Shown one piece after another: positions 3,985 to 45,159 of a stretch of DNA of 64,000 nucleotides. A program made the position numbers and the translations under genes. Every line of letters begins with the position of its first letter. The stretch's first letter is position 1. The stretch is from Lathyrus oleraceus. Taxonomy: Eukaryota > Streptophyta > Magnoliopsida > Fabales > Fabaceae. The notes under the pieces are model-generated. The model worked only from the letters and a program-made list of their open reading frames with translations, ran no database searches and was not told the DNA's origin. The DNA lies in assembly GCF_024323335.1 (NCBI RefSeq), contig NC_066580.1:437963851-438027850 (forward strand). The letters run 5' to 3'.

Positions 3985-4842
3985 TTTTTTGTTTTTTTTC
4001 CTTTTTTAATTTTATTTATTTAATTTAATTTGTTTTTAACACAAAAACCATAAAAAATGTTTAATTTGTTTTTTTATTTTAACTCTTTTTATGTTTATCC
4101 CGGTTTATATATTCAACGTAGCAGCACAATGTTAAATAACCCTGAGTGGTCTGGTGGAGGAGGGCAGTGTTCATATTCTTGAGTGGGGTGGGTTCAATAC
4201 TCATATGTAGCATTTTCCTTTGCATTTTATTTCTTTTAGTTATTTTATTTTTTTTCTTTAGCATTTTCATTTATTCTTATGTTTATGCCTTTATTACACT
4301 CATATGTTCATTTTGTTAAGTTGTTGTCTTCTAATTTAATTCAAAAACCATTTTAAAACTATAAAAATCATGTTTTTCTCGATTTAATATCGAGCCCATT
4401 TTTCACACCCTTGTAAGTCGATTGCTTTTTAAGCATCGCCATTGACCTCACATAGCTTACTCTTGGGCTTTCTTACAATGAGCCGGTTCCCTTGCACTTA
4501 CACTCATACATTGTTTAATGCTTCATTATTTCATTCTTTGATTATTTGATTCGATTATATACTTGTTTATATCTTACTTGTTTGATTAACTGTGGCCTAC
4601 TTGTATGGTGTATAAGGCATGTATTATTATTGTTTGTTTGCCATGAACAATCCCCATTCGTAACAAATGTATCCCTCTCCCATGAAATGTATAATATTTT
4701 TTTCATTCTTTATTCATCTGTAAATACAAGAATTAAAATGAGCATTCGATAACCATTTCAAAGCAAGATCAAAACCTCGATCCAACGTCGAGTAATCATT
4801 TTTTCAAAACCTAACAGAACCAGCACATATTCATCCACCCTT

Positions 4843-4947
4843 TTGTAAGTCGATTGCTTTATGCATCGCCATCAACCTTGTAAGTCGATTGCTTTATGCA
4901 TCCCCATCAACCTTGTAAGTCGATTGCTTCGTGCATCGCCATCTACC
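4843..4947 (+). repeat. 35-bp tandem repeat, three copies
   Basis: TTGTAAGTCGATTGCTT begins at 4843, 4878 and 4913, a strict 35-bp period, each copy with a CATCGCCATC-like tail. An isolated diverged copy lies at 4411. It lies inside the LTR. Confidence 0.85.
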
Positions 4948-5520
4948 CTTATCCCTAGCACCTCTCCTTGCTCCACTCGTCAATTCTTGTTCCGATTAGG
5001 TAGCACCCATTAGATAGAACCTTTTGTATGATAACATAGGTAGAATTCCCATATTCTTTGCATGCTAACATTAGGTAGATATTCCCATTTGTAAATCCTA
5101 ACACTTAAATACATATTGCATGACAACTCTAGGGCAGAGCTTCCCCCACTTCTAGACCTCTCCGAGCGTCTCCGATCTTGTGGCATGTAGTCTGTTCTAT
5201 TGCAAAAAGGTAACTGCCTAAGACTCGATTCAGCGAGCTGCGACACCTACTGCTAGGACGTGAACACATTGCCCACTCTCCTTTGACACAACTGGTGTCC
5301 TCCTTTGTAAGTCCATATTCAGATGGCAATCCCTATGTAGGGGAACTACGTCGCCCTGATTCTCATACCAGATGAGGTACGTAGGCAGGAGATCGTGCGA
5401 GATCTCTCCGGGCACTCTTTTCCTTTTTTTGTGTGTGTTTGCTTGACAGCTAGCAGGCTCGAGTACCAGACTCCCTGTTAGCTTGTTTGTTTAACTTTGT
5501 TGTTGCTTCTGACGATTTAG

Positions 5521-5710
5521 CGTCCGGTTAAACCCTTTGTGTGTGTAGGAGTCTGACATAAGTCCAGCGATTGGCAGTTGGTTTCCTGTGTGTGTTTGTT
5601 GGTTCGGAGTCCGATGTAAGTCCAGCGATTGGCATTCGGTTTCCATGTTTGCCTGTTTGTGTGGAGTCTGACATAAGTCCAGCGATTGGCAGTCGGTTTC
5701 CTGCGTGTGT
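5521..5710 (+). repeat. 57/58-bp tandem repeat, three copies
   Basis: The core AAGTCCAGCGATTGGCA recurs with starts of the surrounding unit at about 5551, 5609 and 5666. The same core is found reversed in the inner Ogre LTR near 31265, 31330 and 31412, which supports the assignment of this stretch to an Ogre-type LTR. Confidence 0.8.
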
Positions 5711-6419
5711 TTTGTTTGGCGTCCCTATGTAGCCGAACTACGACAACTCTGATTCTCATGTTCAGATGAGATACGTAGGCACAAGACGTGATGTCTTGCC
5801 GAGTTTGACTAACGACTAACAACTAATCCTTGTTTTCTTTCGCCCTCGTTGCGATCCTTTCTCTCGCCCTCGTTGCGATCGAGACCTTCCCTTTCTCTTG
5901 CCCTAGTTGCAATCGAGACCTTTGTTCCCGTAGTTAGCTGAACCATGTTTTGCTCTGATTCTCATTCCCGATGAGATACGTAGGCATAAGACGCGACGTC
6001 TTAGCGAGCACACTTACCCTTAACCCATAGGTAGCCGAGCTACGAAGACTCTGATTCTCATTCCAGATGAGATACGTATGCAGTGGATGCGACATCCGTG
6101 CGAGTCATTTTCTTTGACCCTCTCTTTTAGTAAATAGTACATTAGATAAACACACACCCTTTAGACAAGAAACAAACAAGAGTGGATCCCCTAGAGTACT
6201 ACGGATGCGTAGGGGTGCTAATACCTTCCCTTCGCATAATCGACTCCCGAACCCAAGATTTGGTGCGAGACCTTGTCTTTTCCTTTCCTTTCTCTTCAGG
6301 TTTACTTCGAGCGTTTCCTTTCCCTCCTTTGGGATAAATAACACACGATGGCGACTCTTCTGTCACTTTCTTCTTCGCCGGTTGTTTTTTCGCACTACCG
6401 TATTTTTCGGGTTGCGACA

Positions 6420-6920
6420 ACAAAGATCACCATCACCAAAAGGATAATGGTAAGATCAAAATGACTTCAAAGATCGCCATAACCAAAAGGATGATGGTAA
6501 GATAAAAAATAACATCACCATCACCCAAAGGATGGTGGTTAAACAAACTCTGAAGGTTGAAATTACCAAAAGGATAATGGCCATCACCAAAAGGATGATG
6601 ATTAATTCACAATGACTTCAACGATCACCGACACCAAAAGAATGACGATAAGATCAAACAACAAAACTTGCTATCACCAAAAGGATGATAGTAAGACTAA
6701 AATAATTGCAAAGATCTCCATCACAAAAAAATATGATGGTTAGACCAAAGCTTCAAGGATCACCAACACCAAAAGGATGATGGTAAGATCAAACAACAAA
6801 ACTTGTTATCACGAAAAGGATGATAGTAAGTACACAACTTCAATGATCACTATCCCAAAAGGATGAAGTTAATATTTATGGCAATACTTGCTATCACTAA
6901 AAGGATGATAGTAACACGAT
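6420..6920. repeat. AAAAGG-loop minisatellite, unit copy 1
   Basis: About a dozen imperfect copies of CACCAAAAGGATGATGGTAA-like units of 35-60 bp. Many have arms that pair around the AAAAGG core, for example CTATC at 6671-6675 with GATAG at 6687-6691. The same array recurs at 8588-9088 and 10756-11256 in the other copies of the 2168-bp unit. Similar arrays occur in the 3' UTR of the outer Ogre-like element (48690-50560). Confidence 0.85.
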
Positions 6921-7923
6921 AACTTCTTTTTGTTGCTGGCCAAAACACTACTTGATTCAGACTTGCACTCCTTTCTTTTCTTTAAGGCCCATTTACCCTA
7001 TATCTAATCATGTTCATCTCATTTTATCATGATAATTAGTTTAGATAATTAAGATTTTGGGAGATTAATCAGGTTTTACAAATATTAGGTTAATTAGAAC
7101 TTTAACTAATTTAATTAAATTAGATCTTAATTAGTTTTTTGAACTTAGTTAATTTCTAATTAGATCATGTTTTAAATACTTAGATAATTAAACAAATTAA
7201 GTTTTACATAATTAGATAATTAGGATTATTTAGTTTTTTTATTAAATGTTTATTTTTAGAAACTATCTTCCTAATTAATCAATTTTTGACATATTGACCA
7301 TTTTGCCCTTAAGGCTTGAAATCTCGATTTTTAATACATGCTCCCTTAGTTTAGGATCTTGATCAGTTTTGTCTGATTCTTATTTAGATGATTAATTCAA
7401 TAGGATATTATTTAACATAATGCAACTATTCATTTCAATCCCACTGATTAGTGTTGACCAAAGGTCGCTTTGGTCAACTAAATCTTTTATAATTGTGTTG
7501 TAAGCCCCAAACCTATTCAAGTGAACAAAAGACCCTTTATCACTTGATATGGAATGTTCATTATGCTCAAGCTATTGTAGATATGTTGAATCTTAGGAGC
7601 TCGGGACCTTAAGGTTCAAATACAAGATCAAGGCTTCAAAGTCAACATCAACCTAACATAGCTAGCAACGTGGACTACTTCTCAAGCACTGCAAAGGTAT
7701 CAACACTTGAAGATCATAATTCAGAGTGTGTGGCACGAGCCTTAAGAAATAGAGAATGAATGAGATTGGAGAATTCCATTAACTCATTTTGAATATCTTT
7801 GGGCACGGGATGCTTGATCCAATTGCTCATTGTATTCACCTCTATTCATAGACTTTAGCATAATTTGAATTACGTGATTGGAAAGCCTTCTTCTACAACA
7901 AGTAGCACTACATCAATAAGATA
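6921..7923. other. AT-rich noncoding part of the 2168-bp unit
   Basis: No coding evidence. 6980-7430 is dominated by TTAATTAGAT-type words; 7440-7490 carries a GTTGACCAAAGGTCGCTTTGGTCAAC inverted repeat (20 bases of it paired around a short centre). 7700-7923 contains a stretch repeated in diverged form at 12300-12480. The same sequence recurs at 9089-10091 and 11257-12258. Confidence 0.7.
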
Positions 7924-10900
7924 TTCATGTTCAGATGAGATACGTAGGCACAAGACGCGATGTCTTGCCGAGTTTGACTAACGACTAACAACTAATCCTT
8001 GTTTTCTTTCGCCCTCGTTGCGATCCTTTCTCTCGCCCTCGTTGCGATCGAGACCTTCCCTTTCTCTTGCCCTAGTTGCAATCGAGACCTTTGTTCCCGT
8101 AGTTAGCTGAACTATGTTTTGCTCTGATTCTCATTCCCGATGAGATACGTAGGCATAAGACGTGACGTCTTAGCGAGCACACTTACCCTTAACCCATAGG
8201 TAGCCGAGCTACGAAGACTCTGATTCTCATTCCAGATGAGATACGTATGCAGTGGATGCGACATCCTGCGAGTCATTTTCTTTGACCCTCTCTTTTAGTA
8301 AATAGTACATTAGATAAACACACACCCTTTAGACAAGAAACAAACAAGAGTGGATCCCGTAGAGTACTACGGATGCGTAGGGGTGCTAATACCTTCCCTT
8401 CGCATAATCGACTCCTGAACCCAAGATTTGGTTGCGAGACCTTGTCTTTTCCTTTCCTTTCTCTTCAGGTTTACTTCGAGCGTTTCCTTTCCCTCCTTTG
8501 GGATAAATAACGCACGGTGGCGACTCTTCTGTCACTTTCTTCTTCGCCGGTTGTTTTTTCGCACTACCGTATTTTTCGGGTTGCGACAACAAAGATCACC
8601 ATCACCAAAAGGATAATGGTAAGATCAAAATGACTTCAAAGATCGCCATAACCAAAAGGATGATGGTAAGATAAAAAATAACATCACCATCACCCAAAGG
8701 ATGGTGGTTAAACAAACTCTGAAGGTTGAAATTACCAAAAGGATAATGGCCATCACCAAAAGGATGATGATTAATTCACAATGACTTCAACGATCACCGA
8801 CACCAAAAGAATGACGATAAGATCAAACAACAAAACTTGCTATCACCAAAAGGATGATAGTAAGACTAAAATAATTGCAAAGATCTCCATCACAAAAAAA
8901 TATGATGGTTAGACCAAAGCTTCAAGGATCACCAACACCAAAAGGATGATGGTAAGATCAAACAACAAAACTTGTTATCACGAAAAGGATGATAGTAAGT
9001 ACACAACTTCAATGATCACTATCCCAAAAGGATGAAGTTAATATTTATGGCAATACTTGCTATCACTAAAAGGATGATAGTAACACGACAACTTCTTTTT
9101 GTTGCTGGCCAAAACACTACTTGATTCAGACTTGCACTCCTTTCTTTTCTTTAAGGCCCGTTTACCCTATATCTAATCATGTTCATCTCATTTTATCATG
9201 ATAATTAGTTTAGATAATTAAGATTTTGGGAGATTAATCAGGTTTTACAAATATTAGGTTAATTAGAACTTTAACTAATTTAATTAAATTAGATCTTAGT
9301 TAGTTTTTTGAACTTAGTTAATTTCTAATTAGATCATGTTTTAAATACTTAGATAATTAAACAAATTAAGTTTTACATAATTAGATAATTAGGATTATTT
9401 AGTTTTTTATTAAATGTTTATTTTTAGAAACTATCTTCCTAATTAATCAATTTTTGACATATTGACCATTTTGCCCTTAAGGCTTGAAATCTCGATTTTT
9501 AATACATGCTCCCTTAGTTTAGGATCTTGATCAGTTTTGTCTGATTCTTATTTAGATGATTAATTCAATAGGATATTATTTAACATAATGCAACTATTCA
9601 TTTCAATCCCACTGATTAGTGTTGACCAAAGGTCGCTTTGGTCAACTAAATCTTTTATAATTGTGTTGTAAGCCCCAAACCTATTCAAGTGAACAAAAGA
9701 CCCTTTATCACTTGATATGGAATGTTCATTATGCTCAAGCTATTGTAGATATGTTGAATCTCAGGAGCTCGGGACCTTAAGGTTCAAATACAAGATCAAG
9801 GCTTCAAAGTCAACATCAACCTAACATAGCTAGCAACGTGGACTACTTCTCAAGCACTGCAAAGGTATCAACACTTGAAGATCATAATTCAGAGTGTGTG
9901 GCACGAGCCTTAAGAAATAGAGAATGAATGAGATTGGAGAATTCCATTAACTCATTTTGAATATCTTTGGGCACGGGATGCTTGATCCAATTGCTCATTG
10001 TATTCACCTCTATTCATAGACTTTAGCATAATTTGAATTACGTGATTGGAAAGCCTTCTTCTACAACAAGTAGCACTACATCAATAAGATATTCATGTTC
10101 AGATGAGATACGTAGGCACAAGACGCGATGTCTTGCCGAGTTTGACTAACGACTAACAACTAATCCTTGTTTTCTTTCGCCCTCGTTGCGATCCTTTCTC
10201 TCGCCCTCGTTGCGATCGAGACCTTCCCTTTCTCTTGCCCTAGTTGCAATCGAGACCTTTGTTCCCGTAGTTAGCTGAACTATGTTTTGCTCTGATTCTC
10301 ATTCCCGATGAGATACGTAGGCATAAGACGTGACGTCTTAGCGAGCACACTTACCCTTAACCCATAGGTAGCCGAGCTACGAAGACTCTGATTCTCATTC
10401 CAGATGAGATACGTATGCAGTGGATGCGACATCCTGCGAGTCATTTTCTTTGACCCTCTCTTTTAGTAAATAGTACATTAGATAAACACACACCCTTTAG
10501 ACAAGAAACAAACAAGAGTGGATCCCGTAGAGTACTACGGATGCGTAGGGGTGCTAATACCTTCCCTTCGCATAATCGACTCCTGAACCCAAGATTTGGT
10601 TGCGAGACCTTGTCTTTTCCTTTCCTTTCTCTTCAGGTTTACTTCGAGCGTTTCCTTTCCCTCCTTTGGGATAAATAACGCACGGTGGCGACTCTTCTGT
10701 CACTTTCTTCTTCGCCGGTTGTTTTTTCGCACTACCGTATTTTTCGGGTTGCGACAACAAAGATCACCATCACCAAAAGGATAATGGTAAGATCAAAATG
10801 ACTTCAAAGATCGCCATAACCAAAAGGATGATGGTAAGATAAAAAATAACATCACCATCACCCAAAGGATGGTGGTTAAACAAACTCTGAAGGTTGAAAT

Positions 10901-12258
10901 TACCAAAAGGATAATGGCCATCACCAAAAGGATGATGATTAATTCACAATGACTTCAACGATCACCGACACCAAAAGAATGACGATAAGATCAAACAACA
11001 AAACTTGCTATCACCAAAAGGATGATAGTAAGACTAAAATAATTGCAAAGATCTCCATCACAAAAAAATATGATGGTTAGACCAAAGCTTCAAGGATCAC
11101 CAACACCAAAAGGATGATGGTAAGATCAAACAACAAAACTTGTTATCACGAAAAGGATGATAGTAAGTACACAACTTCAATGATCACTATCCCAAAAGGA
11201 TGAAGTTAATATTTATGGCAATACTTGCTATCACTAAAAGGATGATAGTAACACGACAACTTCTTTTTGTTGCTGGCCAAAACACTACTTGATTCAGACT
11301 TGCACTCCTTTCTTTTCTTTAAGGCCCATTTACCCTATATCTAATCATGTTCATCTCATTTTATCATGATAATTAGTTTAGATAATTAAGATTTTGGGAG
11401 ATTAATCAGGTTTTACAAATATTAGGTTAATTAGAACTTTAACTAATTTAATTAAATTAGATCTTAATTAGTTTTTTGAACTTAGTTAATTTCTAATTAG
11501 ATCATGTTTTAAATACTTAGATAATTAAACAAATTAAGTTTTACATAATTAGATAATTAGGATTATTTAGTTTTTTATTAAATGTTTATTTTTAGAAACT
11601 ATCTTCCTAATTAATCAATTTTTGACATATTGACCATTTTGCCCTTAAGGCTTGAAATCTCGATTTTTAATACATGCTCCCTTAGTTTAGGATCTTGATC
11701 AGTTTTGTCTGATTCTTATTTAGATGATTAATTCAATAGGATATTATTTAACATAATGCAACTATTCATTTCAATCCCACTGATTAGTGTTGACCAAAGG
11801 TCGCTTTGGTCAACCAAATCTTTTATAATTGTGTTGTAAGCCCCAAACCTATTCAAGTGAACAAAAGACCCTTTATCACTTGATATGGAATGTTCATTAT
11901 GCTCAAGCTATTGTAGATATGTTGAATCTCAGGAACTCGGGACCTTAAGGTTCAAATACAAGATCAAGGCTTCAAAGTCAACATCAACCTAACATAGCTA
12001 GCAACGTGGACTACTTCTCAAGCACTGCAAAGGTATCAACACTTGAAGATCATAATTCAGAGTGTGTGGCACGAGCCTTAAGAAATAGAGAATGAATGAG
12101 ATTGGAGAATTCCATTAACTCATTTTGAATATCTTTGGGCACGGGATGCTTGATCCAATTGCTCATCGTATTCACCTCTATTCATAGACTTTAGCATAAT
12201 TTGAATTACGTGATTGGAAAGCCTTCTTCTACAACAAGTAGCACTACATCAATAAGAT

Positions 12259-12480
12259 CAACACACTGGATCTTCTATCATCAACTTGTTAATTTTGATT
12301 CGAGTTGCACGCTACGAGCCTTAAGAAATAAAGAATGGATGAGAGTGGAGAATTCCATTAACTCATTATGGATATCCTTGGGTATGAGACGCTTGACCCA
12401 GTTGCTCAAGGTATTCGCCTTTGTTCATAGACTTTAGTGCAATTTGAATCATACAACTGATAAGTCTTCTTCGAGCAAGC
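12259..12480. repeat. Diverged extra copy of the 2168-bp unit tail
   Basis: From about 12310 the sequence repeats 12070-12245 in diverged form: CGAGCCTTAAGAAATA, GAGAATTCCATTAACTCAT and CATAGACTTTAG words occur in the same order. This older local duplication predates the near-identical triplication. Confidence 0.75.
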
Positions 12481-14200
12481 ATCAATCATTCAAACACTTC
12501 AACAATGGAGCATCATTGCTATTAGCAACTTGTGGTTGTACACATTCTTTCATGCAATTCTTTGCCTTAAAAGGTGGTAAACCTTGGCATGTTCTTAGCC
12601 CTGTAAGGTGGTAAACCTTGGCTATTCAATTCTTCACCTTGTAAGGTGGTAAACCTTGACTATTCAATTCAATTCCTTTCCTTGAGAGGTGTTAAACCTT
12701 GGAACTTCAGTTCTTTACCCTGGGAGTCATGGACAATGGCATTTGTTTCTCTTTGCCCTGTCAGGTGATAAACCTTGGCAATCCAATTCAGTTCTTTTCC
12801 CTGAGAGTCATTGACTCTAGCATTTGTTTCTATTTGCCTTTAGAGGTGTTAAACCTTGGAAATTCAGTTCTTTACCTTGAGAGTCATGGACTCTGGTATC
12901 TGTTTCTCTTTTTCCTGTAAGGTGATAAACCTTGGTCGTCCAATTCAGTTCCTTGCCTTCAATAGTTTTAAACTCTGGTAGTGATACATTGCCTAGAAGA
13001 TTGTGAACCTTGTCATTCCTTTTTCAGCCTTATAGGGTTGTGTACCCTGGAAAATCAATTTGTTTCCCTTTGTTTCAACCTTAGTGGGCTGAACTACGAT
13101 TGCTTTGATTTTCTCATTGCACTATGAGAATACGTAGGCACGAGGATGCAAATCCTTGGAAAGCATACTCATAATTATTCTTCCTTCCGCCTTAGGGCAC
13201 CATCCATATCTTTCATAATCCATCATTTACCTTTAATCATTAAACCGTTCACCTCAGTGACATACTATTTCTTTGAAACCGAAATACATTTTTCTTTGGA
13301 ATTCCAAATACACCCTTTTAGGACCATATAGTGACAATCCGCGTTTGTACCTAGAGTTGTTTGGCTTGTACCCAGACATTTTATTCCTTTTTTTTCGGCC
13401 GATAAACCCGTTTCCCTCTATGGTACAAATTTCACTTCTCCTATGGATTCCAATGTATACCCTGACCTTTGGTTCCAAATTATACTTTTTCAGTCACTCT
13501 TATCAAACCGCGATTCTTTGACTTTGGTCAAGCATTCCATTCATCTCCATGATGCATTCATATTCTACCTTCATTCATTTCAAGTGATATACCTTATCTT
13601 TGAGCCAAATATACTATTTCTTTGAGCTCCATCTTGTACCTCTTTGTGAACCAAGAGATGTTTGTGCTGTAAAACCAAACACTTAATTCCTTTGTTTTCG
13701 GTTGTTCCAATATAGTGATACCATGTTTTAGGCCCCTCACTCGTTGGTTCATACCAGTTTTACTCTTGGGTTAATATTTCACCCCTTGTTGGAGTTCAAA
13801 TCATACAACCCTTTAGTTCAGACCATACCTTGTTATCACAGTTCTTTTCATCTCTCACCACTAGTTCTATGAACTACGGAGCTCTGAATTCCTCATTACA
13901 CTATGAGGATATGTAGGTATGAGGTTCCCAATCCTCATCAAGAACTTTATCTATTTCCTTCCTTTTCCCTTATTCTTTTGTGAGTATCTTTAGATATAAC
14001 ACCTATTCGAGCTTAGAACAATCAAAACGGTTCCCATGGAGTACAATGGATATAATGGGTGCTAATACATTCCCCTTGCATAACCGACTTCCTTACCCAG
14101 CATATCTCTTTCCCCTAGTTTTTATCGACGTTTTCCCTTTCCTTCGGGAATAAATAAAGTTCGATGGCGACTATGTTGTATGTTCGAGCATGCGATATGT
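12481..14200 (+). mobile_element. LTR fragment, + orientation, with AAGGTGGTAAACCTT array
   Basis: 12560-13010 holds about ten imperfect copies of a 35-60 bp unit with core AAGGTGGTAAACCTT, itself a hairpin (arms AAGGT/ACCTT). Two hairpin modules typical of Ogre U5 follow at 13111-13156 and 13891-13938. The conserved U5 block GGTGCTAATACATTCCCC lies near 14059, and GGGAATAAATAAAG near 14145. The stretch therefore reads as R/U5 of a + oriented LTR. It joins the minus-strand ORF1 relic at about 14200 without a recognisable LTR end, so the junction is a deletion or recombination point. Confidence 0.6.
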
Positions 14201-16052: not shown

Positions 16053-19000
16053 TGTAGCGATAATTTTTTTGAGATTAAGCTATTGATTAACTTAACTCGC
16101 AATGCACGATTCGCCACTGTGCTTTTATTGTTTCCAAAGGAAAAGGGAAAAAGTACGAACAAAATCCAAAGAAGTTTTAAAAACAAAACTAATAAAAAGA
16201 GAACAAGGGTCCAAGAGTTAGTTATGCAAAGGGAAGGTATTAACACCATAAACATCCATGGTATTTCATGTGAACCTCTTTGAAAATATGTACATTTTGG
16301 TTTGAAAAGGGTGTTGTTTGTTAAAAGATTGGAGAGATAAGAAAAGAAGTATATTTTTCTTGTTTTTATGTTTGTCAAGACTTTTGAAGTCTAATGCCTA
16401 CGTACCAACAAAGTGCAATGGAGGATCAAAACCTCGTACTTCATGGTAAAAATAACAAAGAGAGTTTATTTTGATTCATTTTTATGGAAAATACATTTTG
16501 TAATTTTAAGGAGAATACTCAACTAGTCACCCAAAAGTATGAGAACTTTGCATCATCATGATAACTTGGATAAGGATCAACAAGTATGCCACTAGCTCTC
16601 ATAAATGGAAAAGAATTATCATAATTGCTATGGGGATAGGATAATTATATCTCAACTATGGAAATGGCTTATGTCTAATACCTTGAGAAAAGTTCTAAAA
16701 GGAAAAGTACACAAAAACAATTTGAATGAGTTATGCATTTTTTTAAGTCTTTTGAAATTGGTCTGGATATGCCTAAGATGAATTAGCATTTATTAGGATT
16801 TTTTTTTTAAAATCACTTGACAAAAGTCAAGGTTTATTGATAAAGAGGTTCAAGTTAGAAAGCAAGAAGGTTTTGAAAAAAAGAGAGAAGATTTTAAAAA
16901 CTAAAGAAAGGGAGGAGAAGAAGAGACTATCCTGAAGCATAAAGTAAAAGCTAGGGAGGAAAGATCTAACCAAGAGATAACAAGCTTTGTGACATAAGTC
17001 AAACAAGAATTCCCTCATTTGGATTAAGCCTCAAGCAAGCCAAAATAAGCAAATAATAATCCATGTATCAGATGAATCAAAAGTGACCAAACTAAGTTTT
17101 CACAGAGAAGTCCAAAGTCATAGGTATTAGATGAATTCCAAGGTCTCAAGTCACAAGTCCCAAAGCAAAAGTCAAGATCATAATTCTAAGTCCATAACTC
17201 CATAATCATGCAAAGGATAGTAACCACAAGTCCATGAGTTAAGAGAAACAAGTTTCTTTTCAGATTTTTTCTTATTAGTGTCTTCTTTACAATGATATAA
17301 AATAAAGTTCCAAATGGACAAAAAACAAAATGACATAATCACTAACAATATGATATGAAATGCTAAATATAAAGTGTAAAGTAAATGACATAAAATAAAT
17401 GCATAAAGTAAATGACATTGAAATATAATTTAATACAAGTGAAAAGTTAGTAAAAGATGTTAGTGAAGATGAAAAGATGTTTTGGTCATTTTTTGAATAA
17501 CACTCAACTATCCACTCACGAGCATGAAAATATGAACTTATACATCATTTATGAGAAGGGCTCCAACTTGGATAAAATCAACTAGTATGTCACTAGCTCT
17601 CACAAATGGAAAATGAGCAACATTTTCACACAATACATGAGGAATATGAGACTTACAATCTCACTTATAAAAGTTCATTTGCTTTTGGGACAAATTTAGC
17701 GCTATGTTAAGCAATTGTAATTGGACTTATGTAGAAGTCACAACTATCTGAGGCCGGTCAATAATAATGTTTATGTTAATACATGCTAGAGAAATGATAT
17801 GAAAAATCATTCTCCTAAAGTCATGCCACACAAAAAAGAAAAGGAATGATCAAGCACAAAGGCAATGAGGATGGTCTATTACTTCAATCCACACTTCATG
17901 ACACTTAAGACAAACTTATGCATCAATTCAAAGTACTTTAAATGATCCATGATCACTTAGAAGGTAGATTTGAAATGATGAAAGTTCATTAAGTACCAAT
18001 CCACACATCATGAACAAGATGGACACAAGTCATCCAATTGATCAAAGGGAAAATAAGGATATGAAGAAGAAGGAATCAAGAGAAGTCACACCCAAATTGG
18101 ATCAAAAGTTTGATCAAGTCATCATCAAAATCAATCATCCATTTTGGTTGATCAGGGTTTTCACCCCATCAACACCCAAGACCCATTGATTTTGATGAGA
18201 GTTGAAGTCCAAACCATCATGATCCAAGGCTAACAAAAGTTCACAAGGTCACACAAATATAAAATGCATTTAAATAAAATAAAAGTGCATCAAATGTATT
18301 TTTAAATGAATTTTAAAATAGAAATAAAATAGAAAATTCATAAAGTCCTTCAAAACACCAAATAAATGACCAAGAAAATTATGGAAGATTGAAAATAAAA
18401 TAAGAAACATATAATAACATTTTCATAATTTTAAAATGCAGAAAAATAATTTTTAACCAATTAAAACAAAGGAGAAAAGAGAAAATTCATGAAAAATAGA
18501 AAATCAGTGAAATAAAATATAGAAAAATAAAAATTAGATGAAGAAAAATAAAAGAGAATTTTAGAAATTACTTTGGGATTTTTTGGATAAAAAATGAAAT
18601 TACAATAAATTTTTAAAGGAAAAAGCAATTAAAAATAATAAAAAAAAAAGAATTAAAATCATAAAAAACATAGAGCATTAAATCACACCTCATTAATTGA
18701 CGTAACATATCCAACACTCTAAAGGTTAGGATGCATGGTGGAATGCGCTACAAATCAAACACAAGATCCAGTTTAAGTCTAACCAATCAAAAGAGTCTAT
18801 TCTGCCAACATGTATGATTCAAACTCAGACAACCTAAGAAAGCTCCGGTCTTCTTCTCCGGTGAACTCTCACCAGAGTTTTATCGTTTGATAAATTCAAG
18901 ACATGGAACCACCACCATTGTGATCTTCTTCTCATCCCGAATTCAACCTTATACTCCAAATTCATTTATGTGAATTGAGCAAAGGGAATTTCAGAGAAGT

Positions 19001-28178: not shown

Positions 28179-30166
28179 TGTCGCTACGCGAAAAATACAG
28201 AGTCGCCATTGGATTTTATTTATTCTATAGGAAAGGGAAAATATCGAGAAAACCCCAAAAGAATTGTCATCGCAACCACGAACGGGTTCGAAAGTCGATT
28301 ATGTAAGGGGAATGTATTAACACCCCTCACAATCATCGTACTCGATGGGAACCATCTAGCTTATCTCTCGCTTGAATGGGTGTCGTTATCTTAATGCTTA
28401 CTTGCTAAAGGTTTACGAAGTGAAAATAAATTTTTTATTAGTGTGCTCGCCAAGGATTTGGGTCCTCGTGCCTACGTATGCTCACTTGTTGAAGTGAGAA
28501 ATCAGAGCCCCGTTGTTCGTGGTACAAAATGTTTATTTGTTTTGTTTATGTTATACCTTGAAAAGGGTTTTCGAAATTATGCCCTAAGGCTCAAACAAAA
28601 GGTTTGATGAGTTAATGTTGTGTTTTAGGTTTTGAAAAGAGATTGTTCTTGACTTCGGATTGCACTAAAGACTATGGGTAAAGGTGAGTATCTCGAACTA
28701 CCAAGCCAAGCGTCTTGTGTTCAAAATACTCAGAATGAGTGTAGGAAAGCTCCATTCTCATCCCTTCTTTACCACTTAAGGCTCGTGGCATACAATCCTA
28801 ATCGTATTTTATTGTGTTTTGAATTTGATTTGAGAAAATACTGTTTAACGTTGGATCAATGGTTTGTTTATTGCTGATAGCATTCATGCCTTTCTAGGTT
28901 TCATTCATTCTGACTTGTGTTTTCGCAGCTCATGTAGGTCATGGTTTAACAGGTTTTGGTTATATGCACATGAATGATGGTTGGATAAGGCAACATGATG
29001 AGCAAAATTGGAATATGAAGCATCATGTAAAAGTGGCAAATCAAATATCAAGATGGGTTTTGAAGATTAGGATTAGGATTAGAATTGAAGATTTAGGGTT
29101 TTAGGATGGAAAAGGGGATTGGATTGACTTTGGTCAAAGTTGATCAAAAAGTCAACATTCAATTTTTTTGTATTTTTCTCATGTAATGACCATTTGTAAT
29201 GGATTATGATGATGGAATTTTCATTTGAATGAAATTGGATTGCTATTTGAATTGATCTTGATTTTTTAACCTTGTATGGAATTTTAAATGGATATGACTT
29301 GAAATGGACATGATTAACTTGTAACTTGAATTAAACATGACTTGAGTATGGATTGAACCAAGGCCGGAAAATGAATCAAACTTGACATGAGTTGAATATG
29401 ACTTAAAAATGAATTGGACCAAAGCTTGTAATGGAATGGAATCAAGGCAAGGATCCATGAATGTACCACTAACCATACACCAAAGGACATAGCAATTACT
29501 TAAATGATCAATGACAAACCTGAACAAAGGCATGACAACATATGAAATGAATATTGACCAGATGAAAATAGGTTAATCAAGGAAAGGGCTAGGGTTAGGC
29601 ATGAGGATGAACATATGGCATAGCAAAACATATACCTAGGCATAAACCAAAGGACACAAGCACATGATGCACATGTGGGAGAATGAAGTTGATGGGATCA
29701 AAAGCAATAGGAACCACATGCATGGACTATGCACAAGAGGTTGGAAGCAACTTTGGTCAAGCAAAAGAACCAAATCACAATGGAATGAGATGAAATTAGG
29801 GTTATGGGCCCACACAAGGGCATGAGACATGAATAGGGTTTAGGGACACCATGATCAAATGGGTATCCCCCAAATAGGATTTTGATTCCTCAAGAAGCCA
29901 CAATTGACACACCAAACATGGGCACAAAACCCAAGCATCAAAAGTTATCTCCAAGTAGGGTTTGATTGATTGAGCCACCTCAAGTTGGTGAGAAACCCTA
30001 GTTTTCACTAGATGCAAGCACAAAGCCATGAATCTAAGTCACTTGTCTTCTTATGTTGAACCATGCTTATGCAGATGAAATGAATGCTTATGAGGATATA
30101 CAAATGATTAGAGTTAGTGACCTAAATGATCATTGTAAAGGGTGGGGAAAATTTTAGGGTATGACA
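28179..30166 (-). mobile_element. 3' LTR of the outer Ogre-like element
   Basis: The + strand reading begins TGTCGCTACGCG at 28179 and ends GGTATGACA at 30166 (1988 bp), with TG...CA ends. Near its start are the conserved U5 block (reverse of GGTGTTAATACATTCCCC) at about 28305-28325 and a two-hairpin module at 28453-28498. At 29120-29160 it shares TTGACTTTGGTCAAAG-type words with 215-400. It is less than half as long as the other Ogre LTRs here, and I see no TATA box, so an internal deletion is likely. Confidence 0.75.
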
Positions 30167-30748: not shown

Positions 30749-30991
30749 TGTCGCATTACGCGAAAAACCGGCGGGGAAACAAGAACAACAGAGCCGCCAC
30801 CGTGCGTTATTTATCCCAAAAGAGGGAAAGGAAACGCTCGAAGTAAACCTAGGAAAGAACATGGTCTCGCGACCAAAGAGAATGGGTTCGGGAGTCGGTT
30901 ATGCGAAGGGAAGGTATTAGCACCCCTACGCATCCGTCGTACTCGACGGGATCCACGCACAAAAGGAAGGATAAATGGTTGCTAAAACACT

Positions 30992-31012
30992 GCTCACACA
31001 CACACACACACT
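30992..31012. repeat. CA microsatellite
   Basis: A run of CA dinucleotides within the LTR; the copy in the other LTR (about 45388-45407) is two units longer, a typical slippage difference. Confidence 0.85.
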
Positions 31013-31679
31013 GGCTGAAAGAGACACAAGAAAACAAAACTGAAACTGACTCGGCAGAATACCGCATCCTGGGCCTACTTAGTCTATCAAGCATAGACAT
31101 CAGAGTCGAAGTAGTTCGGACTGGGGGAAACGACACATGCTCGCTAGGATGTCGCATCCTATGCATACGTATCTTCTTGGACGAAGAAGAATCAGAGCAT
31201 TCGTAGCTCGGCTGACACACACACAAACAAACAACAGGGAAAGGCAAACGTGGAGCCTGAATGCCAATCACTGGACTTACATCAGCATCCGAACCAACAA
31301 ACACACACAGGAAACCAACTGCCAACCGCTGGACTTACGTCGGACTCCAACCAGAAAAGGAGAAACAACTCACACAAACAAAACAAAAGGGCGAACGTGG
31401 AGCCCGAATGCCAATCACTGGACTTACATCAGCATCCGAACCAAAAAAAAACACACAAGGGTGGTTAAGACACAAAGGGTGGAAAAGAAAAAGGGCGCCC
31501 GGATGCCAATCTCCTGCCTACGTACCTCATCTGGTATGAGGATCAGGGCGACGTAGTTCCCCTACGCAGGGAAAAAGGACTAGCCTAACCAGATAACAGA
31601 GGGAGACACAACTAGGGAGACTACGACTCGAGCCTAGATGTTATCATGCAAAATCATCCCTAAGTTAAGGTTTCTAGCT

Positions 31680-31832
31680 AACTGGCACAGGGAGCCAGCC
31701 TATCCTAATCATGACTTGCATAGGAAGCAAGTCACACACACACTTAACTTGCATAGGAAGCAAGCCAAGCAAAACCTAACTTGCACAGGAAGCAAGTCTA
31801 AACTAAACCTAACTTGCACAGGAAGCAAGTCA
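31680..31832. repeat. Hairpin repeat with loop ACAGGAA and variable arms
   Basis: Five units of about 33-35 bp: 31682-31698 (arms CTGGC/GCCAG), 31713-31733 (GACTTGC/GCAAGTC), 31748-31764, 31779-31797 and 31812-31830 (ACTTGC/GCAAGT). Loops are ACAGGGA, ATAGGAA or ACAGGAA. In the first unit both arms change together. Present only in the left LTR, inside the stretch missing from the right LTR. Confidence 0.85.
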
Positions 31833-34601
31833 AACAAACATACAAGCACAGGTAGCGCACACTATACACAAGCAAGGGGCTCAAACAAGGCTAGGTTTTA
31901 GTCGAGGGGTCAAATCAACCTCAACAAACAAACCTCTGGAACTGGGTAAATGTTGCTCTTAACCTTGACATTGAGAGCCAAGGTGAAGCAGATGAAAGGA
32001 GATGAGGGGTGTGCCTCATTGCTCTTATCCCTGGTCAGGGAGAGCATTTGAATATCAGAAGGTGTGGGAGTTCAGAAAGTTGGAACTCTATCCACAAGTT
32101 AGACTCTATAGATCTTGGGTTTTTACTCACTATGCATCAACACAGGTAGTGTGAGCAAGGTGAGTGACACACAGACTAGCAGGGGATAGATTGCTTATCC
32201 CTTGGATTCTGCCAATTGCCTCTTCACTTAGGAGGTCTTTGCATATGTACAAGGACAAAATTAAACAATCAAAAACATTGCCTCTTAAGGAGGACTTCAG
32301 ACAGTTGCCTGGCCAAGTAACAGGCCAGGTCTTCCAGACTACATGAAGATTAGAAGTATACCTCAATGCAAATTGCTTAACAAGCAAAGCAAAGCAAAAG
32401 TTCACAAGGAACTGAGCAACTAAAAGCACCTGAAATAGTCAAGCAGACATTAGTATACAACTTCAAAATTAAAGCAAAAGGAAACAGAAGTCAACAGTCA
32501 ACACAAGCAAGTGAATGTGCAAGGTACAAGGCTCAAGGCATGTGAGCCAAGCAACCTACAAAACAAAACATGTTAGTCATGATAAACAAGCAAACACAAC
32601 CAATTTGTATTGGTCTCATTGGACAGTTGTTGGTTATCCTGAAAAGATGAGCTCAAATTTGAGTAACAGGACCACTAGGACAAGCCTAGGGTCAAAAGAG
32701 AATGAGAAAGTCAAAACAGCAAATGACAAGCATCCAAAATCAAGTTCAAACAATCAAGAAACAAACCCAATTGGGTTCACATTCATATCAATCATCATCA
32801 TCATTTCATGAACAATTTAGGTCATGGCATGGCATTTAGAAGCTCATAGAAGTCAACAGCAAGACTTGAATCAAAAGCAATCTCAAACATTTCCAAAAAT
32901 CACCAAATAAATCATGATCAATCACAACCTATAGCATGGTAAGCATGTCAAATTTCATCTCATTTGGACAAGTAGAAGATAGTCAATGAAAATCAGAAAG
33001 GCAAGGCAATTTTGAACATGCTCAAAGAAGTCAACCAAACATGCATCAACTTAAGAAAATCATAAATCAGTGATGGCATATGATAAATGAATGAGACTAA
33101 AACCATGGCAAAGCTTAAGATGTCTAGTAATTACATATCAAATTTCATGTCCATCTAATAAAGTATGAGGATTTTACAAATGAAATGGGAACATGTGTCA
33201 CAAAAAGTCAACATAAGACCCAACAGGGGAGAAAAATCTCAATCAATTGGAAAATGCCATAAACAAATCCACAAAAAATCACATGTAAACTAGACATACA
33301 CAAGCTCAATCATGCAAAAATTCAATCCATTTTGAGGTCAAGAAGCATGGCTATGAAAATCATCAAGTTGCACATCAATGGTGTGACACAAATTATCACA
33401 CCCTACTTCAAAAAATCATAACTCAATGACCAGAGAAGATAAATTCATGAACTCTATACCAACATCACCATGAATGTGTCTAGTTTGTGTATAAAAAATT
33501 TCAAGGCCATAGGATAAAGTGTCACTATTTCACAAATGATTTGGTAAAAGGTACAACAATTGAGCACATGAGCAAAACCCTAATACCAAATAAAATCCAT
33601 TCATAAAAAAAAATCAGGAAAAATTATGACAAATAAGTAGAGATCATGATGAATCAAATGCAAAAAATCCCATGGAAATTGGATCAAGGATGATGAACTT
33701 ATGATTTTTACAAAATGAGCATACAAAGATGAAATAATTATTGAAATAACATGATTTATGCAATTAATTAAGCACGGCAGTGGCAGTTTAGTAAATACCG
33801 GATCCACTAATCGAAACACCGCGTTTTGGACATTGAAAAGGAAATAATCTGATTGGTTAGTATGGATAAACAGCGCCATGCATACGTGAACAGGGGATAA
33901 ATCTGGGAAACTCATGCATATTCTAGGGTTTATGTTGAACAGTGAATCTTCATCCTCTCCAAAAATCGTGAAAAACAAATTGGCCCAGAAATTGAAATTG
34001 GACACGCCATCATGACCAGCAAACATCCAGCATTACAAATCCAAACATCATTTTCATTGAATCAACTTGAACAACACGAATCGAGCAAAAATAACATTTA
34101 ACATCAAACTTGAAACTTAGATTTCTCTCAGAATAGTTAACCATTTTTAGTGATTCAAGTTCCAACATGACCATCACAACAAAACCTAACTAAAGCATGG
34201 CATAGTTTCAAGAAATTGGAGATTCGAGTTCTTACTTGATTTTGAAGGAATTAGTGAAACAGTTGTTGTTTGGATCTTTGGTGATGAAACAGTTGCTCCA
34301 ACAAGCTCCTAATGATGAATGATGAAGTTTGCTTGGCTCAAGAAAGCTTGGTTTGGCTCCAATCAAATTCTGCCATTAGTGAAGCTTGAAGAAAACAGTC
34401 GTGGAAAACAGCTTTACAGTTGGTGTGTGATGGTTGGAATCAGCTCAAAATGGATGTTGAATGATGAAACAACAATAGCCAGCTCGTGTGCTTTACAAGT
34501 TTGCAAGGAAAAGTTCAAAAATGCAAAAATGGAAATTTGAGAGAGTGAGAGAATTCTGTGTGTTCAGAGGCTGCTAGGGTTGCCAATGATCAGAAAATAA
34601 C

Positions 34602-34610
34602 CTATATATC
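34602..34610 (-). promoter_or_regulatory. TATA box of the inner Ogre LTR
   Basis: GATATATAG on the minus strand, about 1 kb from the U3 end, followed by CT-rich sequence. The same site recurs at about 47649-47657 in the 5' LTR, where it would drive the element. Confidence 0.55.
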
Positions 34611-35632
34611 TGCTGTTTAAGGTTGCTAAGTGGAATGCTAATCACAATTTGTTTTAAAAATCAAATTTGCTAAATGACCACTTTTGTTCAAATGGTGAGG
34701 TGCAAGGGCTGTAGCACGAAAATGGGCTTTGTAACATGACCAAAATGCAATTTCAGAACATGTTTGAATGGCCAAATTGATTAGAAATGGTTATCTCAAA
34801 AACTCACTTTTGTACCACACTTGAAATAATTCATGTAAGTGAAAAAAAGGTCATTTTGATCTATGAGGTTTTGGTGAATGATGGTTACATTTTTGGAAAG
34901 AGGAGGTCAAATGTGACTTGCTGGAAAAAACCCCACCCAAATTGGCCAAATGGTTTGAGAGATATGGCCTTTTGAAGTTCAAGAAATTTTGAAAATGAAT
35001 TGATCATAACTTGCCAACCATACATGGGAATTGAGAGTTCTTGGACTTTTTGGAAATGGGAGAACAAGATCTTCAACTTTCATGTTGGGCAAAAATTCAT
35101 TTGAAGCTTGTATCAAGATGTAAGTTTGGGATCAAGAAGTTTCCATTTTTGGCAAGTTTCAATTACAGGTCCAGTTTCTATTTTTGGAAATTTTTGATTT
35201 GGCTTCAAATTCTTCCATGATGATGTTTGACATGTTATATGAGGCCTATTTGGACATGAATAAGCTCTCTCAAACCAAATCCAACCAACAAAAATCATAA
35301 AAACAAACCCAGTTGACCAAGTTTGACTTTTTAGGGTTTCTGACTGACTGTGCATTGACTGATGACTTCTGAGCATCCCATCCTTGACCAAAACACTTCA
35401 AATGGATCCCCAAGTCATGTGAACATGTTGGACCAACCCTAGGGCCTTGGCTCAATGAGAATTGTGCTTGCTTGCTTGACTGACTGATCTCCTGATCAGT
35501 TTGACCTAATTCTCCTGACTGGCTTGCACTTGAGGCAAAGGGATAATGCAATGCTATGCAGTGGACCATGTTATGTTATGACCTAATATGAGAATGTATG
35601 TACAATGATAGGTGCAAATTTGAGGTGCTACA

Positions 35633-36235: not shown

Positions 36236-37517
36236 AACATCCTGAAGAGGGCTTAGAAAAGCCGTCTTGTTAAAGGATGGACATTCGATTCCACAAGAAA
36301 TACGAATCTTATTCGACTGGGGAGGACGACTTCGACCCAAGAGCGCATGAGACATATTATCTATAGCCGTCAGAACGTAGATAATACACTCGCATGGAAG
36401 ATTATTCATAACCGGGTTGTAGGTTGTTAAATGAATAATCGACCGAAAACATCCTGAAGAGAGCGAAAGCAAACTTGTTACAGGATGAACATTCGATTCC
36501 ACAAGGAATACGAATCTTACTCTGCTGGATATAACAATCGAAAGATTGACCAAAGAATGCATGAGATATATTATCTATAGTCGTCAAAACGTAGATAATA
36601 AACTCGCATGGAAGATTATCCATAACCGGGTTGTAGGTTGTTAAATGAATAATCGACCGAAAACATCCTGAAGAGAGCGAAAGCAAACTTGTTAAAGGAT
36701 GAACATTCGATTCCACAAGGAACACGAATCTTACTCTGCTGGAGAAAACAATCAAAAGATTGACCAAAGAGTGCATGAGATATATTATCTATAGCCGTCA
36801 AAACGTAGATAATACACTCGCATGGAAGATTATCCATAACCGGGTTGTAGGTTGTTAAATGAATAATCGACCGAAAACATCCCGAAGAGAGCGAAAGCAA
36901 ACTTGTTAAAGGATGAACATTCGATTCCACAAGGAACACGAATCTTACTCTGCTGGAGAAAACAATCAAAAGATTGACCAAAGAGTGCATGAGATATATT
37001 ATCTATAGCCGTCAAAACATAGATAATACACTCGCATGGAAGATTATCCATAACCGGGTTGTAGGTTGTTAAATGAATAATCGACCGAAAACATCCTGAA
37101 GAGAGCGAAAGCAAACTTGTTAAAGGATGAACATTCGATTCCACAAGGAACACGAATCTTACTCTGCTGGAGAAAACAATCAAAAGATTGACCAAAGAGT
37201 GCATGAGATATATTATCTATAGCCGTCAAAACGTAGATAATACACTCACATGGAAGATTATCCATAACCGGGTTGTAGGTTGTTAAATGAATAATCGACC
37301 GAAAACATCCTGAAGAGAGCGAAAGCAAACTTGTTAAAGGATGAACATTCGATTCCACAAGGAACACGAATCTTACTCTGCTGGAGAAAACAATCAAAAG
37401 ATTGACCAAAGAGTGCATGAGATATATTATCTATAGCCGTCAAAACATAGATAATACACTCGCATGGAAGATTATCCATAACCGGGTTGTAGGTTGTTAA
37501 ATGAATAATCGACCGAA
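36236..37517. repeat. 214-bp tandem repeat, six copies, in the inner Ogre 3' UTR
   Basis: The words GTTGTAGGTTGTTAAATGAA and GATATATTATCTATAG recur with a 214-bp period. Four copies (about 36660-37517) are nearly identical, the one before is close, and the first (36236-36450) is clearly diverged. The array lies between pol remnant and 3' LTR, the position from which satellite repeats such as PisTR-A of pea are known to have arisen from Ogre 3' UTRs. The 124-codon minus-strand frame repeated in it comes from the repeat period and is not a gene. Confidence 0.95.
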
Positions 37518-39604
37518 AAGAAAGGCATATGGGTACCAGACTAGGTATGCAAAAGATGACCAATCAAAAGAGGATAAAGTTGCCTACTCGGAGCAAGTAT
37601 CCAAAAAGAAGGTGAAGACCCAATGGGGACAAGACTATCAATACCACAAGGGTAGGACTTACAACTACCGGTTTGTAGGTAGAAGCCACAGAAAAGTAAC
37701 CAGTCATCGATAGGATGAGCACAAAGGGTTAACTCCGCTAGGGGATGAAAGTGGGATTTTACAGCTACCAGTTTGTAGGTAGAAAACCACAGAAATAGGA
37801 CTTACAACTACCGGTTTGTAGGTAGAGGCCACACAATTCCGCTGAGGATAAGGTGAATGAGTGTCGGTTAGTGAGCAACTATTCATTTATGCCCCAGGGA
37901 AGCACAAGAGACAGCCAATAGGAAGCCAATTCAGGATCGATCCAAAATGGCAGACTGAAACAAGACCCACCCTAATGAGGAAAGAAACTCAATAGGGACT
38001 ACCCATCCCAATGCGTGTTGGGAGGGAACGGAAACAACCGTCATCCACGAGGAAGTATCTCAGTGGGGAAATGGCAGGAAAGGGTAGACACTTTCTGCTT
38101 AAGGGTTGGCTCTACATGGAGAGATCAGACACACCCATATCTGCTAGGGAGGATCTACTAGAGAGATCTGTATCAACAAATAGCAGGAGACAACCATCAA
38201 CAGATACACGGCAACAGCTGCATCATGAGTACCTGAATGTTATGATTATGCATGTATGCATTATACCTAAAATGTATGATGAATGTTGACAAACAGACAT
38301 GCTCAACAGGCAGGTTCGGGAATCAACCATCCGACACCATTCTTCCGGAGGGAAAACCAAAGTCATCAGAGAGCAAAGAAAATCCACTGGGGACTGGGAT
38401 ATCAGGGAACACTCATCCTGCAGGGGAGGAAGGCCACCAGAGGCTTTCGGAGGGATCTTCAGTCACAAACCGGAGAACAAAGTTCAAACACAGGCGTACG
38501 CGCCACAACAACTCGTGCTGGAGACCAGAGGTACCGAGAAGCAATCAGATCTCTGATGAGAACAGATAGGCATTGACAAAGCTCCTCGTGCAAACAACTC
38601 CGCTGAGGGATCTATCTGAGAGAATGCCGGATTACTGGGATGTCAATCCACCGAATACTGAATCTTCAAAGAAAAAATACCCATGCTGGGGGGAGAGAGG
38701 AAGACTGCTCTGCTGGAGAGAGGAAAGTTAGAGCCTTCAATAAACACTCTGCCTGGGAACTGGCCCACAAACTTGCAAACTTGTTAGGGATGCCCCACAA
38801 TAGGGCTTAAACAGCACTCCACTGGGGATGCCCCACCATAGGTGCTAATAGGAACTTGGAGGAAGACTCTGCACTGCCGGGGACATGAAGATGAACAACT
38901 TCAACCATAAGCAAACTCGCTGAGGAGAGACCATACGAGGTTCTGCGGGACAAAGATATAGCCATGCTCGAGATACGAACAATTGTCTTACCTGTTGTTA
39001 ATCATACCACCCTCAGGAGAGCACTGTGGGTCTCCTAAGTAACCTTCCATCATTGTGAATGTTCACTTTGTTTAAGAACAATTTTTTTGAAAAATTTGTT
39101 TATTTTGAAACAATGATACTTTATCAATTAAAACATGCAAAACATTTGTTGAATTAAAACACATAAGAGTGCAAATAATTGGGTAAAAGCTCAAATAGAT
39201 GTAATTGAATGGTAGTCTGCAAAGGGCGAGACTCCATGGATCTGTACAAATTTGAAATCGGTGATATATATTGGAGAGGGCTACATTGAACATAATGACC
39301 CTTTCTCTACCATTCTAAATTTCGATGTATTCAGAGCTTCAGTCGACGATGTATCGAGAATTCCTGGCGGATGACAGATATAGAACACAGTCTTGTCAAG
39401 ATGCAGTTACTTGCCAAATCCCTAATTTTTGCCTAGATTGCCCCAGTGTGAGGTGCTCAATCTAGCGGGATGCAAATTCTTTTTTCAATGTCTCTAACTT
39501 TTGCCTGGATCGCCCTTTCGGGTTTTCAATCCACCGAGACGCTCCTTTTTTGCCTAAGTCGCCCTTTGGGGTGTTCGACTTAGCGAGCTATTCTGTTTTT
39601 TCTT
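37518..39604 (-). other. Inner Ogre 3' UTR, proximal part
   Basis: Noncoding. 37640-37840 carries three copies of a unit with core AACTACCGGTTTGTAGGTAG (arms CTACC/GGTAG pair). The part up to about 38980 has many CTGGGGA/GCTGAGGA words. 39060-39300 is ordinary noncoding sequence. The hairpin family at 39433-39583 closes it, directly after the integrase end. Confidence 0.7.
39421..39600. repeat. Three long-armed hairpins just after the pol end
   Basis: Each begins with TTTTGCCT and ends near AGCG or ACCGAG. Arms: CTAGATTG/CAATCTAG (39433-39465), TGGAT/ATCCA (39506-39533), CTAAGTCG/CGACTTAG (39554-39583). The outer element has two relatives at 51975-51999 (TGGAT/ATCCA) and 52022-52054 (CTAAGTC/GACTTAG, with an inner ACTCG/CGAGT stem). 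Confidence 0.85.
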
Positions 39605-45140: not shown

Positions 45141-45159
45141 ATCCCCAGCAGAGTCGCCA
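45141..45159 (-). promoter_or_regulatory. Primer binding site of the inner Ogre
   Basis: ATCCCCAGCAGAGTCGCCA on the + strand ends in CCA like a tRNA 3' end. The minus-strand element RNA would therefore pair with that tRNA over 19 bases. It sits two bases from the 5' LTR. Ogre elements are known to use tRNA-Arg. Confidence 0.88.

Follow-up and report, generated by a model that had tools for sequence, protein, structure and literature searches.

A repeated motif near the end of Ogre LTRs is very probably a conserved three-way-junction RNA with a probable pseudoknot

Near the end of their long terminal repeats (LTRs), Ogre retrotransposons (Ty3/gypsy, Tat lineage) carry one to four copies of a motif. 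It very probably corresponds to a genuine conserved RNA structure, in which a three-way junction is probably combined with a pseudoknot. Helices P2 and P3 covary above a tree-based null, and the closing helix P1 also shows double changes, with weaker statistics. The UGAU and UACGUAG strands of the junction are near-fixed while the letters of the helices change in compensating pairs, and the modules are RNA folds that evolve separately. We are highly confident that this is a real fold, under selection as sense-strand RNA.

Ogre-type LTRs in the window and the host genome

The window, i.e. the whole 64-kb stretch of DNA analysed here, is plant DNA rich in Ogre-type LTR retrotransposons. In one of them, element C, an LTR of ~4.9 kb was delimited by self-match at 30749-35632 and its partner LTR starts at 45162. 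Between these LTRs lie Retrotrans_gag (41053-42360) and DUF7745 (42947-44521), both on the minus strand, so that element C has the gag, the extra ORF and the long LTRs of an Ogre element; no pol frame of at least 200 aa was seen in it. The exact word TGGCGACTCTGCTGGGGA, which we take to be the Ogre primer binding site (PBS) fitting tRNA-Arg, is located at 45142-45159, 2 nt from the LTR match, as in an Ogre-type element. Ogre is very abundant in the host genome, with 60,260 exact PBS words (30,089 + 30,171).

The modules at 5335-6120 are close to the end of another Ogre-type LTR. The word TTGCGACA at 6412-6419 has no PBS after it, so this LTR looks like a 3' or solo LTR; in LTRs of the same type (e.g. 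loci L143, L148, and L175), TTGCGACA is the LTR end beside a true PBS. In many copies, including the same three loci, a word resembling the start of the PBS, GGTGGCGACTCT, lies inside the LTR, ~50-110 nt upstream of the true PBS as estimated by eye, and it was also seen at 6349 in the window; it is possibly a decoy or a relic of an older LTR end.

Further repeats and frames were noted in the window. A tandem array of a 214-bp unit (36266-37519, 5.9 copies, 95% matches) is situated between the two LTRs of the minus-strand Ogre element, and an open frame at 55717-56343 (+) matches the plant mobile domain PF10536 (E 8.3e-14). According to the available excerpts of PMC6317226, 57% of Ogre elements contain this domain.

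Architecture of the module

The unit has the order P1-UGAU-P2-UACGUAG-GC(A)-P3-P1'. The first-pass annotation had described four modules of two hairpins each, whose arms were all read in the sequence where it had placed them. The first arms are CTCAT/ATGAG (5362-5376) and TCTCAT/ATGAGA (5754-5771, 5960-5976, and 6056-6072), and the varying second arms are GAGATC/GATCTC (5389-5406), CAAGAC/GTCTTG (5782-5798), TAAGAC/GTCTTA (5987-6003), and GGATG/CATCC (6085-6097). The two-hairpin description was correct but incomplete, as the closing helix P1 makes the module a three-way junction. P1 was seen by lining up the window copies, in which the letters before TGAT complement those after the second hairpin. 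P3 begins with GC, usually with an extra A, and P1' follows directly after P3; the second pair at the foot of P3 is formed in only 48 of 93 modules.

The junction letters are near-fixed. Among 164 parsed modules (of 167 full-length ones, in a sample partly picked for junction variants), TGAT was found in 121 and TACGTAG in 108. Other versions were mainly TGATT, TGACT, and TGAAT for the former, and TATGTAG, TACGTAT, and TACATAG for the latter.

A third small stem upstream, also claimed earlier, is present in many copies, but its geometry varies and none was found for module A3 (core at 5977). From 61 non-redundant modules entered, 60 were scored, of which 40 had an upstream hairpin of at least 5 bp, compared to 18.6% with the flank letters shuffled, and 20 had none.

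When pieces of 103 nt were folded, the minimum-energy fold was the junction in six of ten (A1, A2, A4, both C2 copies, and the 28430-28526 module), while unguided folding yielded no junction for A3, 13083-13179, C1, and 16355-16450. Shorter pieces, some of them cut in P1, gave the junction in four of eight (A2, A3, A4, and C2). The stability of single-module folds relative to shuffles was uneven, with z from +0.2 to -3.4 over eight pieces, two of which were no stabler than their shuffles.

Module catalogue

A covariance model built from 48 modules detected 19 modules in the window (Table 1). The exact core TACGTAKGCA occurs there 16 times, compared to 0.04 expected from shuffles. In module A3, the upstream strand CCATG does not fully fit CGTAG, so the pseudoknot strand is impaired in this copy.

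A 2168-bp unit, of which the LTR end is part, occurs three times head-to-tail at 5756-12258 (+) with ~99% identity; LTR ends have thus multiplied in tandem together with their modules. Elsewhere in the host genome, a unit bearing a module has likewise been amplified in tandem, with six copies of one module variant spaced exactly 3,808 bases apart (G000 C2:413199395-413218466).

Table 1 Positions of the modules, their parts, and the second structured element in the window.
Feature	Position	Strand	Basis and remarks
Module A1	5335-5428	+	Covariance match, 78.9 bits; three-way junction in fold of 103-nt piece; no junction in shorter piece cut in P1
A1, 5' side	CTACG 5346-5350; P1 GCCC 5353-5356 / GGGC 5410-5413; J1/2 TGAT 5357-5360	+	Sequence
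A1, hairpins	P2 5361-5366 / 5372-5377; J2/3 TACGTAG 5378-5384; GC 5385-5386, A 5387; P3 5389-5394 / 5401-5406	+	Sequence
Module A2	5727-5819	+	83.4 bits; junction in longer and shorter pieces
A2, parts	CTACG 5738-5742; P1 AACTC 5745-5749 / GAGTT 5801-5805; P2 5754-5759 / 5766-5771; TACGTAG 5772-5778; P3 5782-5787 / 5793-5798	+	
Module A3	5932-6024	+	85.5 bits; junction in shorter piece (z -2.95), absent in longer piece
A3, parts	Upstream CCATG 5943-5947; P1 TGCTC 5951-5955 / GAGCA 6006-6010; P2 5960-5965 / 5971-5976; TACGTAG 5977-5983; P3 5987-5992 / 5998-6003	+	
Module A4, core TACGTAT	6029-6120	+	80.7 bits; junction in longer and shorter folds (z -2.06)
A4, parts	CTACG 6040-6044; P1 GACTC 6047-6051 / GAGTC 6102-6106; P2 6056-6061 / 6067-6072; P3 6085-6089 / 6093-6097	+	
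Second structured element: two adjacent hairpins, the second with loop GTGCTAATACC, between modules and LTR end	6184-6241	+	RNAalifold, 20 non-redundant of 34 copies
Modules, second copy of 2168-bp tandem repeat	7897-8288 (7897-7988, foreign sequence upstream; 8101-8193; 8198-8288)	+	Covariance model
Modules, third copy of 2168-bp tandem repeat	10065-10456 (10065-10156; 10269-10361; 10366-10456)	+	Covariance model
Module of another LTR	13083-13179	+	74.8 bits; P1 TGCTTT/AAAGCA (at 13131), P2 TTCTCAT/ATGAGAA; minimum-energy folds without P1 (z -3.39)
Diverged module, core TATGTAGG	13863-13958	+	58 bits
Diverged module, P1 GTTT/AAAC (at 16404)	16355-16450	-	55.3 bits; fold not junction
Module with P2 CTCACTT/AAGTGAG, P1 GCTC/GAGC	28430-28526	-	73.7 bits; fold is junction
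Element C 3' LTR, module 3, P2 GTCTAT/ATAGAC, P1 GACTC/GAGTC	31034-31122	-	46.7 bits; piece cut in P1, fold not junction (z 0.23)
Element C 3' LTR, module 2, core TACGTATGCA	31124-31217	-	78.8 bits; fold is junction
Element C 3' LTR, module 1, closing stem CGCCC/GGGCG (at 31524)	31482-31567	-	62.1 bits; fold not junction
Element C 5' LTR, copies of modules 3 (45430-45518) and 2 (45520-45613)	45430-45613	-	Covariance model; ~270-450 nt before PBS

Covariation of the helices

A sequence-only MAFFT alignment was made of 48 modules, 45 of which remained after clustering 111 pattern-found modules at 90% and three of which were additional modules from the window. On this alignment RNAalifold, unprompted, returned P1, P2, and P3, with double changes in 12 of 12 pairs. 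The proposed structure including the pseudoknot was paired in 88.5% of 1,149 cells, and its covariation score was 0.480, compared to 0.213 for shuffled and 0.093-0.143 for slid versions. Two of five measures were not clear of the shuffles, namely double-change pairs (17 vs 15.5) and further pair types (47 vs 43.7), which were reached by 80 and 39 of 500 shuffles.

Covariation above the phylogenetic background, the check that the first-pass annotation had set for its reading, was found for P2 and P3. We used a tree null in the style of R-scape (our own re-implementation, not R-scape itself), in which the parsimony changes on each branch of a FastTree tree are given to random columns, and the statistic was a G-test with average-product correction. 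For a structure-blind test, 61 non-redundant modules were selected by words alone; among 3,655 column pairs, the six ranked highest were all in helices (P3, P2, P3, P2, P1, and P3), with one-set E-values of 0.0000, 0.0125, 0.0150, 0.16, 0.96, and 1.15, of which three pass E < 0.05. The seventh pair was outside the structure and the eighth was in P1. For 93 modules found by the covariance model, which favours pairing, all of the top seven pairs belonged to the structure, and three had E < 0.05 (0.000, 0.005, and 0.030). Modules within one family are not independent.

None of the P1 pairs passed the one-set test, the best having E-values of 0.96 (61 modules) and 0.40 (93 modules), and they passed only if the test was limited to the ~22 proposed pairs (0.006 and 0.016 with the 61 modules). 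Pairing in P1 reached 95-100% for three pairs of the 93-module alignment and 90% for the innermost, and the outermost was mostly unpaired.

Sense-strand signal

Across P1-P3 of the 93-module alignment, there were 123 G.U and 57 A.C cells, compared to 238 and 199 in column shuffles. P3 had 61 G.U and 11 A.C cells (shuffled 99 and 63), and P2 had 45 and 25 (shuffled 79 and 66), part of the P2 A.C count being a one-letter slip between families in the alignment. P1 showed no G.U preference (17 G.U and 21 A.C; shuffled 59 and 70). Since deamination of G-C pairs yields G.U and A.C alike, the overall excess of G.U, carried by P2 and P3, points to selection as sense-strand RNA. The earlier reading of the motif as conserved RNA structure is thus supported by the covariation of P2 and P3, by RNAalifold, by the covariation score against shuffled and slid versions, and by the overall G.U bias.

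A probable pseudoknot

The upstream strand GAACUACG shows strong conservation, and its CUACG complements CGUAG of the junction, with which it probably pairs to form a pseudoknot across P1. Four of the five pairs of this helix hardly vary, and the fifth varies informatively. In the abundant TATGTAG families (16,091 + 16,235 = 32,326 pattern matches) it changes from G-C to A-U. CTACA was found upstream in 77 of the 100 TATGTAG matches listed (hand count), compared to 4 of the 100 TACATAG matches listed, the listed matches representing few families and not being independent. In the rarer TAAGTAG family, which is present in the window at 31034-31122 and 45430-45518, the same pair changes from G-C to U-A. 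For TA[A/G]NTAG (1,220 matches, control 178), three were compensated among the matches listed, all of one family. The modules of element C have CUACG/CGUAG, CUACG/CGUAU, and CUACU/AGUAG, the last with the pseudoknot pair changed on both sides (module 3), which is consistent with pairing inside each module, not from one module to another.

In a same-branch test, four of seven 3'-side changes fell on a branch with a 5'-side change and the pair was kept in all four (expected 0.97, P = 0.0044). The test covers one of the five pairs, with trees built without these columns and with the loci picked by eye (L222-L261) left out, and two of the four co-changes are in neighbouring modules of one locus. 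An earlier same-branch test (P < 1/5000) was discarded because its loci had been picked by eye for these letters.

Other observations gave the pseudoknot no support. With the core variant TACATAG (7,194 matches), the compensating CTATG was present in 2 of the 100 matches listed, and with TA[N][C/T]TAG (1,104 matches, control 146), one match was fully compensated among those listed. The TACGTAT class leaves a C.U mismatch in the pseudoknot helix, whose cells in the 93-module alignment include 13 G.U and 19 A.C, and in the all-pairs test the pseudoknot pair was not significant (E about 111). The upstream hairpin, which often uses the same CUAC letters, could be in competition with the pseudoknot.

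A second structured element near the LTR end

The two adjacent hairpins listed in Table 1 occupy the same place before the PBS in many of the LTRs sampled (e.g. L142, L144, L161, and L163). Compensating changes were observed in the hairpins (e.g. CCGTA-GAGTA-CTACGG, CCGTC-GAGTA-CGACGG, and CCGTTGAGTACAACGG), and a second stem surrounds the loop GTGCTAATACC. The element is also readable before the PBS of L162, L165, and L168, all of which are without the three-way junction. The combination of tandem modules with another structured element ahead of the LTR end is consistent with a leader or packaging region.

Abundance and distribution

The 12-letter core piece GATACGTAGGCA has 76,252 copies in the 3.795-Gb host genome (38,225 + 38,027), compared to 782 (401 + 381) for the reversed control. 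All loci sampled for modules were from this one genome. They comprise 20 stretches of 10 kb centred on core words, another 20 of 2 kb placed at PBS words, and 80 stretches with lengths of 241-781 bases, with L142-L221 falling in the first 6.4 Mb of contig C1. With the covariance model, the window plus L142-L181 yielded 88 matches, and L182-L261 yielded 101.

Modules were present in 16 of the 20 PBS-centred LTR ends, a sample taken from the first 28 PBS words listed, with four of the eight left out sitting in the module-bearing core-centred loci L143, L146, L148, and L155 and the other four omitted arbitrarily. No module was found in L162, L165, L168, and L177, which reached only 3.8-5.9 bits with filters off; some Ogre LTRs thus do without the module. 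Core words in PBS-centred loci were located 337-1003 nt upstream of the PBS. Since the modules lie within the LTR, any element that is transcribed would carry them in its genomic RNA, where they may be in the 5' leader, the 3' end or both. TATA-like words upstream of the modules had no common position.

Words similar to the core may also occur in the LTRs of other eudicots. Two pattern scans of prokaryote genomes gave 0 matches. In viral contigs, one pattern scan yielded at least 120 stretches and another 23, which on reading looked like phage DNA carrying the words by chance. Of the 141 viral-contig loci with a chance core word beside CTGAT, 100 (930 kb) were searched with the covariance model, and none matched at E up to 1; no relative of the DUF7745 protein was found among viral contigs.

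In the literature searched on Ogre, plant LTR packaging, xrRNA, and three-way junctions, we found no description of the module, which is absent from the available excerpts of PMC6317226, and nothing on the sorting of Ogre RNA between splicing, translation, and packaging. The word TACGTAGGCA occurred in 11 of the papers searched, none with a title that concerns LTRs, and the one occurrence checked was an actin primer.

Proposed function and alternatives

The best explanation of the whole, which we offer tentatively, is an RNA fold whose row of modules would serve as a packaging mark recognised by Gag. In this view, a protein, most likely the Gag of the element itself, recognises the compact core. 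The row of one to four modules would single out full-length RNA to be packaged and reverse-transcribed, with additional copies raising avidity. A near-fixed core, variable stems, tandem copies, a place before the PBS, and a second covarying element are what would be expected of a protein-recognised signal in genomic RNA. For the Gag-dependent packaging role taken by itself, our confidence is a shade lower still. The module, a compact tandem fold with a near-fixed core, offers a well-delimited target for probing experiments and for Gag-binding or nuclease assays, and its ready recognition by a covariance model makes it a marker for annotating LTR ends and families.

A less likely reading is that the modules are post-transcriptional regulators bound by a host protein, acting in the export of unspliced RNA or in the control of translation or splicing. 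Excerpts of PMC6317226, citing earlier work, state that the Ogre intron is removed from only a subset of transcripts, so unspliced RNA must exit the nucleus. An alternative upstream hairpin on the same CUAC letters in many copies would allow a two-state switch, but one third of the scored modules (20 of 60) are without such a hairpin of at least 5 bp.

We consider it rather improbable that the pseudoknotted junction blocks a 5'-to-3' exoribonuclease and shields uncapped replicative RNA downstream, as an xrRNA-like structure of no known class. Such a block would suit a three-way junction with a 5'-side strand probably pairing in and with tandem copies. In the plant retrotransposon BARE, RNA destined for packaging is uncapped (excerpts of PMC3735527), and other ways of ring formation may exist (excerpts of PMC7527734). 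The topology is unlike that of flaviviral class 1 xrRNAs, the partner strand here being between P2 and P3, and no conserved partner of the P3 loop was noticed by eye in the alignment. A broader form, to which we give slightly less credence again, is that the modules represent an undescribed class of pseudoknotted three-way-junction RNA, whose arrays act as a directional block to 5'-to-3' decay (or to a helicase) and protect or mark uncapped Ogre RNA. If true, a cellular genome would hold a counterpart of viral xrRNAs that had arisen with a different topology, in tens of thousands of copies in one plant genome.

Dimerisation through the self-complementary junction, one of the functions suggested earlier, is very unlikely. 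The four modules first described contain UACGUA, a perfect 6-nt palindrome, but the abundant UAUGUAG and the rarer UAAGUAG families are non-palindromic and still complement the upstream strand. Although short hairpins can be perfected by template switching and TACGTA holds an ACGT core like plant bZIP sites, a DNA-level feature (a cruciform or protein site) or a template-switching by-product without RNA function is the least credible reading, as it leaves unexplained a closing helix that spans two intervening hairpins, near-fixed junction letters beside variable stems, the probable pseudoknot, and the preference for G.U over A.C across P1-P3 as a whole, which would not be expected of a double-stranded DNA feature.

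Comparison with known systems

The hammerhead ribozymes of plant retrozymes are likewise small three-way junctions in plant LTR elements, and the hammerhead core begins with CUGAU-like letters, as the module does. No Rfam match of any kind, to a hammerhead model or otherwise, was obtained at E up to 1 in window positions 4000-14000 and 20 loci.

Flaviviral class 1 xrRNAs share with the module a three-way junction, a 5'-side strand that is paired in, and a frequent tandem arrangement. In ZIKV xrRNA1, C43G44 is the pairing partner of the upstream U2G3, and G30-G33 form a second pseudoknot with C53-C56 (excerpts of PMC7603331); by our reading of this numbering, the first partner is placed after P3. 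By the same reading, the partner strand is between P3 and P1 there, in contrast to its place between P2 and P3 in the Ogre module. The second class 1 pseudoknot, from the P3 loop to the 3' side, was looked for by eye only, and none was seen in A1.

Compared to the cis-acting leader RNAs of retroviruses and LTR retrotransposons, the module differs in being a junction motif with ~10 near-fixed core letters, repeated one to four times and known here from sequence. It resembles them in lying upstream of the PBS, here within the LTR, in forming stem-loops in a row, and in being conserved by structure.
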